A stretch of 64,000 nucleotides of DNA from Ardenticatenia bacterium. Lineage in GTDB: Bacteria; Chloroflexota; Anaerolineae; Ardenticatenales; Ardenticatenaceae. Positions 9,192-62,111 of this stretch are shown here, in pieces; positions within the stretch are counted from its first letter, which is position 1, and every line of letters begins with the position of its first letter. Position numbers and translations under genes: made by a program. The notes below the pieces were generated by a model that saw nothing but the letters and a program-made list of their open reading frames with translations, was not told where the DNA came from and did not search any database. The stretch is from positions 1 to 64,000 of the forward strand of contig JAUZRY010000086.1 of NCBI GenBank assembly GCA_030949995.1. The letters are read 5' to 3'.

Positions 9192-10433
9192 ATGCAGCCT
9201 ACAACCTTTCGTCAACGTTTTTGGGACGCTCTGTTGACCAACGCCTTGCACTATCGACGCTCAACATGTTGATCGAGTGGCTGGTCATTTCCCACACAGC
9301 CTTTTTTTTCCGGGTGGACCCCTATTTGATTATCGGAGCCGCCGTGGTTCAGGCTGTCGTGTTGGCATTGCCGGCTGTCGAAGGGCGGGCATTGCGGGTG
9401 TTCGTAGCCAACTTCTCGTCGGGAGTAGCCGTCTACACGGCTGTGGAAATGATGATAGAAGGCATGGAGTTCTGGGAGAAGCCAAACCACGTGCTCTATT
9501 GGGTCTACAGCCTGGCCATTGGCCTCTTTGCCGCCTGGGGGACGCGTGTGCCCGAATGCCGCGTGGCCATCTTCGGCGCCTACCTGACCCGAGCCTCGGC
9601 CCTGTTGGCTGTCTACACCGTTGGTGAGTTCTATCTGAGTGACAACGTGAGCCTTCTCCACTGGATCCAAGATGCTACTCACACCTTCATTGGCCTGGCT
9701 GTGCCCCCTCCTGGGGGTTGTCGGGGCTCTGGCCGATGTGAATGCCAAGCGGTATATGCTCCTGCTTCAGGACGCCAACCGCCGCCTACGGACATACGCT
9801 GAGTGGTCGTTCGGCAAGCGGCTCTTCCGGGAACTTCTCAACAATCCCCAGGCAGGGAATCCTCGCCGGCAACATCGAACCATATTCTTCAGCGATGTGC
9901 GCGGATTCACCGCTTGGAGCGAGAAGCGTACGCCTGAGGCTGTCATGGAGATCCTTCAGGCATGGTACTTGGCGGCCGAGAAGGTGTGGGAGCAGTGTGA
10001 GCCGGTGCATTACAAGTTCACTGCCGACGAAGTCATGGCCGTCTTTGCGAGTGTGGAGGAGGCGGCACGGGCGGCCATCCTGTTCCACAGTGCCAGCCGG
10101 TCCATCTGGGAGCCCCACGGCCTTCACGTCGGCATCGGCATCCACTGGGGAGCTGTGGTGGAAGGTCTGATCGGTGGGCGCGAGGTGAAATTTTATGACG
10201 TGATCGGCGACACGGTGAACACGGCTCAGCGCATAGAGAAAGGAGCGAGCAAGGGGCAAATCCTCATCTCTGAGAAAGCATACCGTCACCTCCCGCCAGA
10301 AAAGTTTGAGGCGGGTCCCACAATGCGTATTTCCGTGAAGGACAAAGCTCACTTGGAAGTCCGGGTTCTGCACACGCGGACAGAACAGGAGACTGTGGCA
10401 GAATACATGGAGGCACAGGAGGTATCAGCATGA
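9192..10433 (+). CDS. Membrane-bound class III adenylate/guanylate cyclase (frameshifted near 9702; N-terminal start region ambiguous)
   Basis: Multiple TM helices, then FFSDVRGFTAWSEKRTPEAVMEILQAW...KFTADEVMAVFASVEEAARAA...FYDVIGDTVNTAQRIEKGA; ORFs 9221-9802 and 9672-10433 join as IGLAVPLLGVVGALADVNAKR. Confidence 0.85.
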
Positions 10434-54161: not shown

Positions 54162-56795
54162 TTACGGCTTGAGGACCCGCTGGAACTTAATCATGTACTC
54201 CACGTGGACAGTGCGCCACCGCTCCTCGATGTCGCCCAGCCCGAGGCCGTTGACTCGCTCGCTCGGCAAGCCATCCACCCAGACGGAGTAGGCCTGGCCG
54301 GCGGCGTACATGGGAAAATTGGTGGCGTACTCGGGGAAGGGCTTGTTTTCGGTCACGCTCACCGTGCGCCCGTCGGCCCAGGCGAAGACGACGGGTTGGC
54401 CCACAATGCGGTTGCCGTTCTCGTCGAGCACTTCGACGTTGACGCTGTGCCGGCCTTGGGCCTCCTGCTCGTCGCGCCAGAGCACCTCGATCACCCGCCA
54501 GTAGGCCTGTCCCGAGGGCACGTCAACCGACTGTATGGAGACGCCCAAGGGGCCTAAGCGTGGGTCCAAGTTGCGTGGCGGCTCGGGCGGCGCCTTGGGC
54601 GGCGCGGGCGTGGCCGTGGGGGGGCGAACCTGGCGGGCCGTTGTGTTGCCGGCTTGCTGAGCTGCCTCGGCCTGTGCCGGCGGGTGGGTGGCCGTAGGCG
54701 CCGGCGTGTTGGTGGGCGTGGCCGTCGGGACGGGCGTCGGCGTCTCGGTGGGCGCGGGCGTGGCCGTCGGGACGGGCGTCGGCGTCTCGGTGGGCACGGG
54801 CGTGGCCGTGGGCGCCGACGTCTCGGTGGGCGCGGGCGTGGCCGTGGGGTCGGACGCCAGGGCCACCACCTGTTCCCCACCGCCCACGTTGCTGCTGCCT
54901 TCCAGGAAAGCGCGGCCGTTGCCGTTGAACATGGCGCTGAGGGCCACGCTGGGGGCGGCGATGCCGGTCAGCCAGAGGAGCAGAATGGCCAGCACGACCA
55001 GGCGCACCTTTGCGGCCGTGCTGCGGGCCACAAACCAGGTGATGAGCTCGGCGAGCAGGCCTGGATGTGTGTCCGCCTCGGCTGCTGGAACGGCGGTGAC
55101 GGGCGCAGCAGCGACTTGACGGGCGGGCGCGGCCGCTGGCTCCGCAGTTGGCGGGGAGGGGGCTTCGGTCTCCCGTTCGGTCATCAGGCGGGCTGTCAAC
55201 ACCCGGGTCAACGTGAGCGTAACTTGGGGGTGGCGGGAGAGCATGGCCTCGAAGGCCTGGCGGGGAAGCACCAGGAGCGTGGCGTCCCGGACCACGTGGG
55301 CCGTTTCCCGCTGGCGGTTGCCCGTCAAGAGCCCCACTTCGCCGAAGAAGCCCGGCGATCGCACCGAGATGCTCCCCTTGCCAGGGCCCTCCAGCCGGAC
55401 TTCGCCCTCGTGGAGCAAGTAGAAGGCTTCAGCCAGCTCGCCCAACCGGTACAGCGTGTGGCCGGCCGGCACGTGCACCTCCTCCAACTGGGCGGCGAGC
55501 TCCTCCAGTTCCTCGGCAGTGAAGGCGGCGAAGAGGGGGAAGCGGCGCAGCGCGCTGATCACTGGCGTCTCGGGCGGGGCCGTCTCCTCGCCCAGCAGTT
55601 GCTGGAGCCGCTGGCTTACAGCGGTGCTCATGGCGGGGAAGCGGCTCGCCATGATGTCGAAGTCGGCCTTGGACAACACCCAGAGGGTGGATGGTTCGGC
55701 TGCCCGGGCACTGTAGGGCCAAGCTCGGCCGGTGAGCAAGGCCATCTCGCCCACGTGATCGCCGGACTGCAACTCGTCGAGGACTTCGTCCCCTTCGACC
55801 ACCTCAACTGTGCCCCGGTTCACCAGGTAGAAGGCGTCGCCGGGGGCACCGGCCCGGAAGAGCTGCTCCCCATCAGCCAGGTGGTAGACCTCCAAGTGGC
55901 CGGCCACCACGTCCAACGCATCATCGGGCACGCTGCTGAAGAGGGGCACGCGCCGGAGCATCTCCTCGGCGGCGGTGCGCTCCGCGGCCGAAAGAGGATG
56001 GTGTTTGACGTGTTGGGTAAAGGCCCGGCGCAGGTCAGCGTGTGTTTCCAGGAGGCGGTTCATGTCGTCGCGGCCAAGGCGCCAGAGCTGGACCTCTGTG
56101 GCCGCCCGGGCCACAGCGCCGTAGGTGTCGCCGGTGACGAGGGCGATGTGGCCGAAGAACTCGCCGGGGCCGATCTGACGGAAGGGCTCCGCGATGTCAG
56201 GGGAGGTGGAGACGAGAATGACCTCACCTGCCTCCAGGAAGAAGGCGCTCTCGGCTTTGGCGCCGGCCTGGAAGATGAGCGCTCCTCGGGGGATGAGTTC
56301 GGGGACCATGCGCTCGGCGAGGGCCCGGCGGCTCTCCGGGGAGACGTTGGCCAGCAGGTCACAGGTGGCCAAGTGGGCTTCCAGGTGACCGGTCAGGTCC
56401 ATCAGGGGTTCGCCCAGAAAGGCGCTCAGCTTGACGGCGATGGAGGGGTGTTGGGCTACCAGCTCGGCCCAGTGCTCAGCGGTCATCACCCACGTGTCCA
56501 GGTCGGTGCGGGCCACGCCGGTCACGCCGTAAGGCTGGTGCCGCAACACGTCCATCTCGCCGGCCAGTCCGCCGGGGCCGATGTTGGCCACGACCCGCCC
56601 ATCGGCCGAGCGTTCCACCAGGCTCAACAGGCCCGATTTGACCAAGTAGAAGGCGTGAGCCGGCCGGCCCTCCTCAAAGAGCACGCTTCCCTTGGGGAAG
56701 CGTGCCACGTCCATGGCGCGGGCCACGAGCCGGCGTTCCGCGTCAGTTAACACGCCGAAGAGCGGCGCGTTTTTCAGGAATTGGTTTTTCACCAT
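54162..56795 (-). CDS. Protein with four tandem CNB-like domains, one TM, Thr-Pro stalk and C-terminal Ig-like domain
   Basis: Four repeats of the (PLF...KGSVLFEEGRPAHAFYLVKSG...) type; TM KVRLVVLAILLLWLTGIAAPSVAL; TPAPTETPTPVPTATP stalk; VNVEVLDENGNRIVGQPVVFAWADG. Confidence 0.85.
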   Translation of the reverse strand: MVKNQFLKNAPLFGVLTDAERRLVARAMDVARFPKGSVLFEEGRPAHAFYLVKSGLLSLVERSADGRVVANIGPGGLAGEMDVLRHQPYGVTGVARTDLDTWVMTAEHWAELVAQHPSIAVKLSAFLGEPLMDLTGHLEAHLATCDLLANVSPESRRALAERMVPELIPRGALIFQAGAKAESAFFLEAGEVILVSTSPDIAEPFRQIGPGEFFGHIALVTGDTYGAVARAATEVQLWRLGRDDMNRLLETHADLRRAFTQHVKHHPLSAAERTAAEEMLRRVPLFSSVPDDALDVVAGHLEVYHLADGEQLFRAGAPGDAFYLVNRGTVEVVEGDEVLDELQSGDHVGEMALLTGRAWPYSARAAEPSTLWVLSKADFDIMASRFPAMSTAVSQRLQQLLGEETAPPETPVISALRRFPLFAAFTAEELEELAAQLEEVHVPAGHTLYRLGELAEAFYLLHEGEVRLEGPGKGSISVRSPGFFGEVGLLTGNRQRETAHVVRDATLLVLPRQAFEAMLSRHPQVTLTLTRVLTARLMTERETEAPSPPTAEPAAAPARQVAAAPVTAVPAAEADTHPGLLAELITWFVARSTAAKVRLVVLAILLLWLTGIAAPSVALSAMFNGNGRAFLEGSSNVGGGEQVVALASDPTATPAPTETSAPTATPVPTETPTPVPTATPAPTETPTPVPTATPTNTPAPTATHPPAQAEAAQQAGNTTARQVRPPTATPAPPKAPPEPPRNLDPRLGPLGVSIQSVDVPSGQAYWRVIEVLWRDEQEAQGRHSVNVEVLDENGNRIVGQPVVFAWADGRTVSVTENKPFPEYATNFPMYAAGQAYSVWVDGLPSERVNGLGLGDIEERWRTVHVEYMIKFQRVLKP
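54720..54850. repeat. Imperfect ~42-bp tandem repeat encoding the Thr-Pro stalk
   Basis: Two full copies of cgggacgggcgtcggcgtctcggtgggcgcgggcgtggccgt (one G/A difference) plus a diverged third. Confidence 0.8.
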
Positions 56796-56824: not shown

Positions 56825-57645
56825 TTATCGAGCCCGCCTGAAGCGCACAAACCACCCTATTGGCCGGTCGGGCTCCACATCATCGGTGCATTGTGCCGCA
56901 AGTTGTGCAGTTGTCAAATCCAGGGCGATTTCGCTACGCCCCTGGTCCACTTGGAGGGCGTAGCGGCCCTCCTGGGTCAGGGCGAAGTCAGCGTATCCGG
57001 GGTCGTCGGCGTGCAGGCCGGTGAAGAAGCGCTCCTCCCCTCCCGGCCAGGTGACGCGCAGGGGAATGCCGGGCAGGGGCACGCCTTGGCGGTCCTCCAC
57101 CCGCACCACGAGGAGCCGCGTCTCCGTGCCCTCGCCACAGGTAATGGGCCGGCGGGTGACCACGAGCCAGTCGAACCGGCCGGCGGCCACCACGGTGGGG
57201 AGGGGCGAGGGCCTAGGGGTGGGCTCAGGGGGGAGGGTGGGGGAGGGGATGGGGGCAACGGGGGAGCAGACGGAGTGCCGGCCAGCGCCCGGAGCCCTTG
57301 GCCACGCCCCCCAAGGGCGAGGGCCAGGCGGGCCAGCCGCCGGGCGTGCGCCGTTCGGCCCGCTTCGGCCTCCCGTTGGGCCAAGTCGGCCGTCCACTGG
57401 AGGATGTTGGGCGCCTGGAGGGCCTCCAGGCGCCGGCGGGCGGCTGCCAAGTCCCGCTCGACGGCGTAGGCATCGGCCACCATGCCGATGTAGACTTCTT
57501 TTTCGCGGAACCGCAGGGCGGCCGGGGACAACCCCACCGGCTGCACGGGATGAGCGATCCAGGCGATGTAGAGCCCCGCGCCGAAGCCGCCGAGCAGCAA
57601 GGCGAAGGTGCTGATGACGACGAGAAGGCCCCTGTGGTTTACCAT
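56825..57645 (-). CDS. TM-anchored stalk protein with Ig-like C-terminal domain (frameshifted around 57230-57280)
   Basis: [76 protein letters not shown] + (other frame) PTLPPEPTPRPSPLPTVV...LLVVRVEDRQGVPLPGIPLRVTWPGGEERFF. Confidence 0.72.
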
Positions 57646-58662
57646 GATCGCCGAAACTCCACTTCCCACGAGTAGTGGCCGTAGCAGAGCTGGCGGGTGG
57701 CATCTCGCTCCCGGCAGTCGGCCTCATCGGCGCAGTAGCCCCCCTGGATGAGGTCAGCGTAGTCCGGGTTGACGCTGTCGATGCGCCGTGTCTCCTCGCT
57801 CGTGTAGGCGCGTCCGCTCACGTCCCGCACGACTTGGGCCCAGTAGGCCCCGTAGAGGGGGAACTCGGCCCGGCCAGGCCCCTTGGAGCCGCTCACGATT
57901 TCCTCTTGGCCGCCGGCCCAGCGGACGCGCACGATGATGCCGTCCAAAGGGGCGCCGTTGGCGTCCACCACCCGCAGGAAGAGGACGTTCATTCCGTCAC
58001 AGCCGCCGTTCTCCTGCACGGAGAGCATGCGGGCGACGGTCACCACGAAGTCGGCAGCCGCGGCCGGGGTGGCCGTGGGGGGGCATTGGGATGGGCGATG
58101 GGGGCAGGGGAGTGGGCGTCGGCGTGGGCGGCGGGTGGGTGGCCGTGGGCTGAGGCGTCATGGTGGGCAGCGGGGTGGCCGTGGGAGAGGGGGAGGGCGT
58201 GGCCGTGGGCAAAGGAGTGGTGGTGGGAGAGGGACGAGGCGTGGGAGAGGGGGTGGGGGTCGGGGATGGGGAGGCCGTTGGCGACAGCGTGGCGGTCGGC
58301 GTGGGCGTGGGCAACCAGGCGGCGAAGTCGGGCCGGTTCGCCCCCACGCCGTAGCTCAGGGCGGCCAGGGCGGGCGCCAGGGGGTCCCGGCGCCGGATGG
58401 CGGCTTCGGTGATCGCGGCCACGTCGTCGGCGTCGTACCCCAGCGCGGCCAGCCGCTGGCGGGCAAATGCCAGGTCCTGGTTCAACAGGTAGGCGGCGGC
58501 CACCAGGCGCACGTAGTCGTCGCGGTACTCCTGGGCCAAGTCGGCCGGATCCACGTCACGGTACTCGACGGGCGCCACGATCCAGCCGTACACCAGCCCC
58601 AAGACCAGGCCCACAGCGGCCAACATCACGAGCGCGAAGCCGATCCGTAAGGCTCGTATCAT
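57639..58662 (-). CDS. Paralogous TM-anchored stalk protein with Ig-like C-terminal domain (frameshift in G7/C7 run at 58077-58083)
   Basis: [75 protein letters not shown] + TPTPTP stalk + (other frame) [32 protein letters not shown]. Confidence 0.72.
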
Positions 58663-58830
58663 GGAGCACATCACCCGTTGGCCAACACTTTGGCGGCCGG
58701 CCGAAATTGAAGTAGAATCTCCCACAGAGCGCGGCCCGTGAGCACCTTGCCGACGCCTCCAGTATCACAAGCGGGCACCTTGCATCGTTTGACCTGACAT
58801 CAGTACAGGATCGTAGAAGAACGCGGCCAC

Positions 58831-59577
58831 ATGAGTATAACGAAAACCAGGAGGGCGTCAAAACCACATGATGATCACAACCTGAGGGGAAGTGGCCGGC
58901 TGTTCGTTGCCGTAGTGGCCGGCGGACTGTTGGGAGTCCTCTGGTGGGCTTCGGCCTCCGTCGATTCTGACGATGCGGGGAACAGTGACCTGGAGCTGAT
59001 CCGGCGCGCCCAAGCAGGTGATGTGGAGGCGTTCAACCGGCTGGTGGGGCGCTATCAGCGGCTGGCCTACAACGTGGCCTATCGCCTCACGGGCGATCCT
59101 GACATGGCAGCCGATGCCACCCAGGAGGCTTTCCTGGCGGCGTACAGGGCGCTGCACGCCTTCGGGGGCGGCTCGTTTCGGGCGTGGTTGCTGCGCATCG
59201 TGACCAACAAGTGCTACGACATCCTGCGTTACCATCGGCGCCGGCCGGCCACCTCCTTGGACGCCCTCGTGGCCCAGTCCGCCATTCCAAAGGAGTTGGG
59301 CCGTGAAACAGCACTGCGGCCCGAAGAGATGGTGGAGCGCCTGGAGCTGGCGGAACTCCTCCAGGCGGCCATCATGGAGCTCCCCGAGGCCCAGCGGGTG
59401 ACCCTGATTCTGGCCGATGTCCACGGGTTCTCCTACGCCGAGATCGCCGACATCACGGGGGTCGAGCTGGGCACGGTGAAGAGTCGCCTCAACCGGGCAC
59501 GCCGCAGGTTGCGGGCGCTCCTGCGGCGCCACGAGGAACTTTTGCCCCCCCAATACCGTCTTGTGGGCAGCACCTGA
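58831..59577 (+). CDS. ECF-type RNA polymerase sigma factor (start uncertain; N-terminal hydrophobic stretch if the full ORF is used)
   Basis: DLELIRRAQAGDVEAFNRLVGRYQRLAYNVAYRLTGDPDMAADATQEAFLAAYRAL...LPEAQRVTLILADVHGFSYAEIADITGVELGTVKSRLNRARRRLRALL. Confidence 0.92.
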   Translation: MSITKTRRASKPHDDHNLRGSGRLFVAVVAGGLLGVLWWASASVDSDDAGNSDLELIRRAQAGDVEAFNRLVGRYQRLAYNVAYRLTGDPDMAADATQEAFLAAYRALHAFGGGSFRAWLLRIVTNKCYDILRYHRRRPATSLDALVAQSAIPKELGRETALRPEEMVERLELAELLQAAIMELPEAQRVTLILADVHGFSYAEIADITGVELGTVKSRLNRARRRLRALLRRHEELLPPQYRLVGST

Positions 59578-59614: not shown

Positions 59615-60340
59615 GTGGCCCACATTCACCCGGAACAGCTTTCAGCCTACTTGGACGGCGAACTGTCGGAGGAGGAGCGCCGACAAGTGGAGGTTCACTT
59701 GGGCGTCTGTGTGGCCTGTCGGGAAGACGTGGAGGAGCTGCGCTGGGTGGTGGAGCTGGTGAGCACCCTCCCGTCGGTGGAGGTTCCGCGCCCCTTCTAC
59801 GTGCGCCAGGCCGACTTGGCCCCGACGGCACATGTCGCTCCGAACCTCTCCGCCCGCCTTGCCGGCTTCTTCCGCGCCCTCTCCTACGCCAGTGGCGTTG
59901 TCACCCTCTTCCTCGCCCTGATCACGGCCTTTTCAGCCATCTCGGCCCCACGCCCTGCGGCGGATTTGGTGAGGTCACAAGGGCGCGTTGAGCTTTCCGG
60001 GGCGCCGGAGGAGGAGCTGGAGGCATTCAAGACACAGGGCGAGGCGACGACATCTCCTTGGAAGGAGGTCGTGAAGCCCCCGCCGCCGGCCGGGGACGAT
60101 GATGGCGTGCGCAAGGCCGAGGTCGGGCTCGTCGCGCCGCCCACCGTGATGCCGGACGCCAACGCCATGGCCGAGGGAGTCGCTGCCACACCCATGCCCA
60201 CGGCGACCGGTGGGCGCCCCGTGCGGCCATCGGTTCTGCCCCTGTGCTCACACCTGCCGCGCCGTTGGTCCCGGAGGGTCGGGGCGCGGCAAGCCCCTTT
60301 GCCCTGCCGCCAGCCGCCTGGCTCGCCGTTGCCCTCCTGA
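59615..60340 (+). CDS. zf-HC2 anti-sigma factor, membrane-anchored (C-terminus probably frameshifted)
   Basis: VAHIHPEQLSAYLDGELSEEERRQVEVHLGVCVACREDVEELRWVV plus TM YASGVVTLFLALITAFSAIS; GTG start assumed. Confidence 0.85.
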   Translation: MAHIHPEQLSAYLDGELSEEERRQVEVHLGVCVACREDVEELRWVVELVSTLPSVEVPRPFYVRQADLAPTAHVAPNLSARLAGFFRALSYASGVVTLFLALITAFSAISAPRPAADLVRSQGRVELSGAPEEELEAFKTQGEATTSPWKEVVKPPPPAGDDDGVRKAEVGLVAPPTVMPDANAMAEGVAATPMPTATGGRPVRPSVLPLCSHLPRRWSRRVGARQAPLPCRQPPGSPLPS

Positions 60341-60368
60341 GTACGATTCTGTTTGGAGCGCTGGCACG

Positions 60369-62111
60369 ATGGCTGAACGCCCGCTGAGCAACCGGGATGT
60401 GGCTCGTCTCTTCCGGGAGATCGCCGACCTTCTTGACATAAAAGGAGAGAACCGCTACCGGATCCTGGCCTACCGCCGTGCGGCTGAGGCCATCGAGTAC
60501 CTGAAACAGGAGCTGTATCACATCTGGCAGGAAGGGCGCTTGGGCGAGATGCCCCACATCGGCGATGCCATCGCCGGGAAGATCGACGAGCTCTTCCGGA
60601 CAGGCCGAATCGACGACCTGGAACGCCTGGAGGCTGAGTATCCCCGTCAACTGGCGGAGCTGATGAGCGTTCCGGAACTGGGTCCCCGCCGAGTGCGCAC
60701 CCTCTACGAACAGCTCGGCATCACCACGTTGGAGGCACTGGCCGAAGCCGCCCGTGCGGGCAAGTTGCGGCGACTGACGGGATTCGGCCCCAAAATGGAG
60801 GCCAACATCCTGAGGGCCATCGAGGAACGACTGTGCGAGCGGGGCCGCGTGCTGCTCAGCCAGGCGTGGGAGGAGGCACAGGCACTCTTGAGGCCCTGCG
60901 CGCGGCCTCGGACGACGAGCTCCTCGTACGGGCTGAGGTAGCCGGCAGCCTGCGCCGGCGACAGGCCACCGTGGGCGACGTGGACCTGGTGGTGGCGTCG
61001 CCCTCCCCTTGTCGAGGTGATTGAGGCCTTTGTGCGCTTGCCCCAGGTGGAGGCAGTCGAAGAGGTGGGGAGCACCTGGGCTACCGTGCGCCTGCGCTCA
61101 GGCCTTCGGGCTGACCTGCGCGCGGTGGTCCCAGACCAATGGGGAGTGGCTTGGCAGCACTTCACCGGCAGCCAAGCCCACAACGCGCGCTTGCGGGAGC
61201 TGGCCTCCGGCCTGGGGCTACACCTGAACGAGGACGGCTTCCGGCGCCAGGACGGCACTGACATTCCCTGTGCTCATGAGAAGGCGGTGTACGCGGAGCT
61301 GGGCTTGCCCTGGATTCCCCCGGAACTGCGTGAGAACCGGGGCGAGATCGAAGCCGCCAGCGCGGGGCGATTGCCCTCGACGGTCGAGCTGCGCGCCGTG
61401 CGCGGCGACCTGCACGTGCACACCGTGTGGAGTGACGGCCGGATGACGGTGGAGGAGATGGTCCTGGCAGCCCGGGCAAGAGGGTACGAGTACATTGCAA
61501 TCACCGACCACTCCACCGGCTTGGGCGTTGTGAACGGGTTGGACCCGGAGCGCCTGCGACAACAACGAGAGGAGATCCAGGCCATCAATGCCCGGTATGA
61601 CGACATCACCGTGCTCCAGGGGGCCGAGGTGGAGATCCGATCGGACGGCACCCTCGCCTATCCCGACGACGTGTTGGCCTCGCTCGACATCGTGGTGGCT
61701 TCCCTGCACACCGGCCTGCGCCAGCCCCGGAAACAGATCACGGCGCGCCTGGTGGCCGCCATCCGTCACCCCCTCGTCCACATTATCGGCCACCCCACGG
61801 GACGACTGCTCCTGCGCCGGCCGGGGGCTGATCTGGACATGGAGGCCGTGTTGCGGGCGGCCGCCGAGACGGGCACGGCCTTGGAGATCAACGCATCGCC
61901 CCAGCGCCTGGACTTGGATGACCACCACGTGCGGCGTGCCGTCGAGCTGGGCTGTCACCTCGTCATCAACTCGGATGCCCACCGGACTGAGGAGCTGGCG
62001 AACATGTGCTACGGCGTCTGGCAGGCCCGCCGGGGCTGGGCGGAGACACACCACATTCTCAACACGCGCCCCTTGGGGGCGTTGTTGGCAGCCCTCAAAG
62101 GGCGGAGATGA
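60369..62111 (+). CDS. polX: DNA polymerase/3'-5' exonuclease PolX with PHP domain (two frame breaks, ~60880 and ~61008)
   Basis: LSNRDVARLFREIADLLDIKGENRYRILAYRRAAEAIE...VPELGPRRVRTLYEQLGI; AGSLRRRQATVGDVDLVVAS; PHP GDLHVHTVWSDGRMTVEEMVLAARARGYEYIAITDHS. Confidence 0.94.

Follow-up and report, generated by a model that had tools for sequence, protein, structure and literature searches.

What could a bacterial protein do that sets four CNB domains in front of a single transmembrane (TM) helix and a stalked C-terminal domain behind it? CNB domains are mostly known from transcription factors, kinases and channels. Here we analysed a gene of this kind in a 64,000-nucleotide stretch of DNA from an Ardenticatenia bacterium (the window), together with its relatives, its neighbours and the features of its predicted domains that bear on ligand binding and location.

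Architecture of the protein

The 877-residue protein matches cNMP_binding (PF00027) over four stretches (E = 3e-75; 248.7 bits against the curated Pfam cut-off of 27.5) and has one hydropathy peak, at residues 599–617. AAAGGAGG lies ahead of the ATG. With an intact reading frame, four matched stretches and one hydrophobic helix, the order originally predicted (four CNBs, TM, stalk and C-terminal domain) is borne out. Two congeners have the identical architecture at 65–78% identity, and this conservation, together with that across the class, shows that the arrangement is not due to chance.

One structure model was made per domain. The CNB1 model, for which the alignment consisted of the other three repeats of the same protein, has a pLDDT of 89.7 and matches GlxR (Foldseek, E 1.8e-12) as well as CRP and PKA-R structures, as would be expected of the proposed CNB fold. 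Around the TM helix, Lys and Arg residues on the CNB side equal or outnumber those on the other side in 50 of the 50 orthologs listed, and LysM or SH3_3 domains accompany or replace the C-terminal domain in relatives. The C-terminal domain is therefore very unlikely to be cytosolic, in agreement with the export that had been proposed for it.

Table 1 Features of the CNB gene and its neighbourhood, in window coordinates
Feature	Coordinates	Strand	Details
Whole gene, CNBx4-TM-stalk-β-sandwich protein	54162..56795	(-)	877 aa, ATG start, intact frame
CNB1	56385..56795	(-)	aa 1-137; cassette GEMDVLRHQPYGV; Glu80 retained, Asp82 at the Ala202 position of PKA-RIα, Tyr89 replaces phosphate Arg
CNB2	55992..56384	(-)	aa 138-268; cassette GHIALVTGDTYGA; Glu replaced by His, Arg by Tyr
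CNB3	55575..55991	(-)	about aa 269-407; Glu retained, Arg replaced by Trp359
CNB4 and beginning of Pro/Ala-rich linker	55149..55574	(-)	CNB4 about aa 408-545; Glu retained, Arg replaced by Gln495
Single TM helix	54945..55001	(-)	aa 599-617, AAKVR just before; N-in/C-out (positive-inside rule)
Exported Pro/Thr-rich stalk	54591..54944	(-)	aa 618-735; TPTPTP motif
Exported C-terminal β-sandwich domain	54162..54590	(-)	aa 736-877; common to phage wall hydrolases
Partner gene A (TM, helical segment, stalk, β-domain)	56825..57669	(-)	frame broken in Pro-rich tract; intact in congener G005 (L015, 281 aa)
Partner gene B, same plan as gene A	57639..58725	(-)	frame broken in Pro-rich tract; intact in congener G005 (L177)
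Divergent ECF sigma factor	58831..59577	(+)	Sigma70_r2 E 4.9e-19, Sigma70_r4_2 E 1.4e-17; conserved synteny
zf-HC2 anti-sigma factor, apparent TM segment	59561..60340	(+)	zf-HC2 E 3.8e-11; conserved synteny
PolX-type DNA polymerase, two ORFs (HHH_8/HHH_5, then thumb/PHP)	60210-62111	(+)	third broken frame within 5 kb

Cassettes of the CNB repeats

Cassette positions were numbered G0 E1 x A3 … R10 after GELALIYGTPR of PKA-RIα. At positions 1, 3 and 10, repeats 1–4 of the window protein carry EDY, HAY, EAW and EGQ; the phosphate Arg is missing from all four repeats, and repeat 2 lacks the Glu as well. The cassettes were thus quoted correctly in the original prediction, and their description as degenerate stands. 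Glu and the phosphate Arg occur together in no CNB of the window protein, whereas at least one CNB combines them in 52 of the 61 orthologs; 9 of the 61 are without any canonical cassette.

Each repeat has its own pattern among the orthologs. Position 1 of repeat 1 is Glu or Asp in 60 of 60 readable sequences (61 aligned), position 3 is acidic in 55 of 60, and position 10 is mostly R, Y or H (19, 18 and 17 orthologs); the Asp is combined with Arg in 18. Repeat 2 has Arg in none of the 61, the residue there being Y in 28 and H in 23. In repeat 3, Glu is found in 56, Arg in 51 and the two together in 47, and repeat 4 has Glu in 58 and Arg in 24. Two-CNB relatives from another class of the phylum (L183 and L184) have canonical cassettes in both domains. 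For the family as a whole, the cassettes make nucleotide sensing by the array likely; in the lineage of the window it is uncertain. Because all four phosphate Args are gone in the genus of the window and in its sister genus, the array there would either have switched ligand or have turned into a ligand-independent docking platform. The earlier suggestion of altered ligands or a scaffold is accordingly reasonable for this lineage and does not extend to the family, with its largely canonical CNB3 and the canonical L183 and L184.

The alternative that survives best takes the array to be ligand-free, a scaffold for oligomerisation or docking by which cytosolic partners are fastened, via the stalk, to the wall. 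It would fit the Arg losses in the two genera, the invariable lack of Arg in CNB2, the nine proteins with no canonical cassette and the absence of an enzymatic domain. The paired Glu and Arg of CNB3 and the acidic residue of CNB1 would be hard to explain without a ligand, and Popeye-domain proteins bind cAMP without a canonical cassette (PMC5872366), so that binding may survive the loss of the Arg. We regard such a scaffold as possible, on the doubtful side.

CNB1 of the window protein, and none of its other CNBs, combines an acidic residue at the Ala202 position (Asp82) with the lack of Arg at the 209 position (Tyr89). Trypanosomatid PKAR, which has Glu at the Ala202 position and has lost the Arg, binds purine nucleosides and not cAMP (PMC10959531). 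The analogy makes CNB1 a possible nucleoside-type site, though as a lead only: the residue of the trypanosomatid type is Glu. The next position, 90, where Val would be looked for in that type, is Gly in the window protein and mostly Ser, Thr or Ala among the orthologs. Among other CNBs from genomes of the same family, 0 of about 30 distinct sequences inspected by eye have an acidic position 3; Fisher’s test (55/5 versus 0/32) gives p = 8e-20, in which 32 is a rough count and kinship is ignored.

Six matches to class III cyclases in the host genome make cyclic nucleotides plausible there. A class III nucleotidyl cyclase domain also lies in the window, at 9870-10370 (+) (E 4.2e-23).

Family and distribution

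A profile of the four CNBs and TM helix was matched in 129, and a profile of the exported domain (ectodomain) in 119, of 396 genomes sampled from the host class, many of them metagenome bins (E<=1e-40 and E<=1e-12, respectively). Beyond the class, one family only (f62, two genomes) was matched among 301 genomes sampled from the phylum (E<=1e-60). The protein family is large and apparently undescribed: a search of the literature yielded no earlier description of the architecture or the cluster, which, as it covered open-access papers only, is weak evidence.

Among the 61 aligned orthologs, two (L124 and L125) end at a contig edge before the ectodomain, leaving 59 assessable. The exported β-domain is present in 52 of these, 50 by iterated profile and L085 and L109 by inspection, and missing in seven (L096, L097, L122, L128, L130, L131 and L132). 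In the sister genus (g2), the four CNBs and TM helix are followed by a short tail. Genus g126 (L122, L128 and L130) lacks both the ectodomain and the partner genes and keeps the CNBx4-TM part and the sigma gene, a possible co-loss. The ectodomain is dispensable in g2 and g126, since it was lost there while the CNBs and TM helix were kept.

More distant relatives vary the number of CNBs and the module on the wall side. The f62 proteins (L181 and L183) consist of two CNBs, TM, stalk, LysM (E 8.3e-12), a further stalk and the same β-domain; in those of f33 genomes, the stalk and β-domain follow two CNBs and the TM; L192 and L193 put three CNBs and a TM before two SH3_3 domains; and L195 (3823-6954) has five CNBs and a Gln/Gly-rich linker. 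The overall plan is constant across relatives, and the CNB number and wall module differ.

Gene neighbourhood

The CNB gene adjoins partner genes and, divergently, genes for an ECF sigma factor and a zf-HC2 anti-sigma factor (Table 1). In the window, the frames of genes A and B are each interrupted, through either assembly error or real decay. Local assembly error that leaves the CNB gene unaffected is likely, because both genes are broken here and open in the congener, and polX is split too.

Neighbourhoods were counted at the 43 loci whose readable upstream sequence spans 4.5 kb or more. The ECF sigma gene is present at 33 of them and missing from 10; the anti-sigma gene is found at 31 and one or more partner genes at 33. 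The sigma gene runs divergently from the CNB gene in every case (40 of 40). The partner genes, one to three of which lie upstream of the CNB gene, follow one plan (TM, helical segment, stalk and β-domain), and 20 of 47 upstream partner proteins contain SH3_3.

A strong dyad signal turned out to be a tRNA-Leu(CAA) gene, and the dyad scan gave nothing else. This tRNA gene precedes the operon on the same strand at 43 of 60 loci (L076-L135) and was not found there in the window or g2. UvrD, encoded downstream, was rejected as a functional partner, as it adjoins the CNB gene in the window’s own family only.

Slow rearrangement might by itself have kept these genes together, the CNB gene serving some purpose that does not involve the sigma/anti-sigma pair. 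The tRNA gene shows that a neighbour can persist where shared function is unlikely, and no ECF promoter consensus was found between the divergent units, as would fit such incidental synteny. Against this, the partner genes have the same TM-stalk-β-domain plan as the CNB gene, and the sigma neighbour is kept in versions with two to five CNBs, and also in a different class of this phylum. We consider incidental synteny unlikely.

The exported domain

AlphaFold2, run on the last 142 residues together with seven aligned relatives from viral contigs, returned an ordered model (mean pLDDT 92.4, pTM 0.88) that is all β except for one short helix. Judged from this model, the domain is unlikely to be disordered. 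It had been called Ig-like, which holds in the loose sense of an ordered β-sandwich; membership of Big_1 (PF02369)/Invasin was rejected, with scores of 15.7–18.4 bits against a gathering cut-off of 34.9 (E 0.0024–0.016). With a 14-sequence profile of the domain, no Pfam family scored above its cut-off and the sequence search of the PDB gave no relative, and Foldseek gave no PDB or viral match to the model below E 0.001. The best sub-threshold folds were weak matches to surface-protein, Gram-positive surface or pilus and transthyretin-like β domains.

Sequence relatives were found in IMG/VR viral contigs, where the domain occurs in one protein with Muramidase, GH25, GH108, Peptidase_M23, SLT or SH3_3; identity to those on contigs L136-L142 is 32–43% over the ectodomain. 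The fusions with hydrolases on these contigs could possibly serve to recognise phages of this class of bacteria. Viral contigs searched with the CNB part gave no match, nor did a PHROGs search. A scan of genome contigs had a sole match, which lay in the stalk and was spurious.

Because the same module occurs in phage wall hydrolases, and because LysM or SH3_3 is found there in relatives, we strongly infer from these sequence relationships that the ectodomain is turned towards the cell wall or binds it. Several independent lines back both its export and its wall association. That it is instead an adhesin-type module, displayed at the surface under inside-out control by the CNB part, is improbable: the Pro/Thr stalk and the resemblance to Gram-positive surface and pilus domains would suit it, but those fold matches are below significance, the sequence relatives are in phage wall hydrolases, and LysM and SH3_3 indicate the wall.

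A proposed role at the cell envelope

The phage-hydrolase ectodomain, the LysM and SH3 relatives, the sigma/anti-sigma pair and the paralogous wall-facing neighbours shift the interpretation towards sensing or tethering at the cell envelope. On balance, we lean towards a single-pass envelope receptor or tether, encoded in a sigma/anti-sigma cluster, that couples a cytosolic nucleotide-type array to the wall. As computed, four CNBs lie on the N-terminal side of one TM helix, with the Pro/Thr stalk and ordered β-sandwich opposite. The array would read a nucleotide-type signal: CNB3 presumably a cyclic nucleotide in most relatives and CNB1 possibly a nucleoside-like ligand. Through coupling of the array to the wall-facing domain, envelope state and internal nucleotide state could meet in one protein. 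Gating of the surface domain by cytosolic state, as first proposed, would be one of two directions in which the signal might run. Telling against the receptor or tether are the lineages that do without the ectodomain, the 10 of 43 loci that lack the sigma gene, the missing ECF promoter consensus and the want of a PDB fold match below E 0.001. By the computed gene order, the protein belongs to a conserved cluster of ECF sigma, zf-HC2 anti-sigma and one to three paralogous TM-stalk-β-domain genes; it would work with the sigma/anti-sigma pair and partner proteins and may belong to an envelope-stress or envelope-growth regulon.

A bolder version defines an undescribed class of envelope receptors with two to five CNBs, the first remodelled for a nucleoside-like ligand, and with a TM helix and stalk leading to a wall-binding domain, that sets the activity of the adjacent ECF sigma/anti-sigma pair. 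This extended form is speculative, and we would not expect all of it to hold.

If true, the envelope receptor or tether would be a route by which a poorly studied bacterial class reads nucleotide and envelope state together. The acidic residue of CNB1 would offer a direct handle on a CNB of nucleoside type in bacteria, and the ectodomain would constitute a wall-associated family not in Pfam.

Comparison with known systems

Tandem CNB folds are shared with PKA regulatory subunits and other tandem CNB proteins (PF00027), the likeness extending to the structural matches of CNB1. Unlike PKA regulatory subunits, the window protein has four CNBs, a TM helix, an exported domain and no phosphate Arg, and has no known kinase partner. 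Trypanosomatid PKAR (PMC10959531) resembles CNB1 in its replaced cassette Arg and acidic residue at the Ala202 position; the likeness is one of sequence and is confined to CNB1, and the window protein is bacterial and membrane-bound and has Asp, not Glu. POPDC1-3 (PMC5872366) likewise have a membrane-anchored cytosolic CNB-like domain, a non-canonical cassette and no enzyme, but comprise three TM helices and one Popeye domain, without an exported β-sandwich.

Bacterial membranes also house the CNB-gated channels SthK and MloK1, whose CNB is likewise cytosolic; they have a channel pore and one C-terminal CNB, whereas the window protein is poreless, with one TM helix and its CNB array at the N terminus. 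On the wall side, the phage hydrolases share the β-sandwich module, but are lytic, with muramidase, GH25, GH108, M23 or SLT domains and without CNBs. In ECF sigma/membrane anti-sigma envelope-stress systems such as sigmaV-RsiV of Bacillus subtilis, a sigma and anti-sigma pair similarly adjoins envelope-facing proteins; the cluster in the window adds to this a CNB-TM-wall-module protein.
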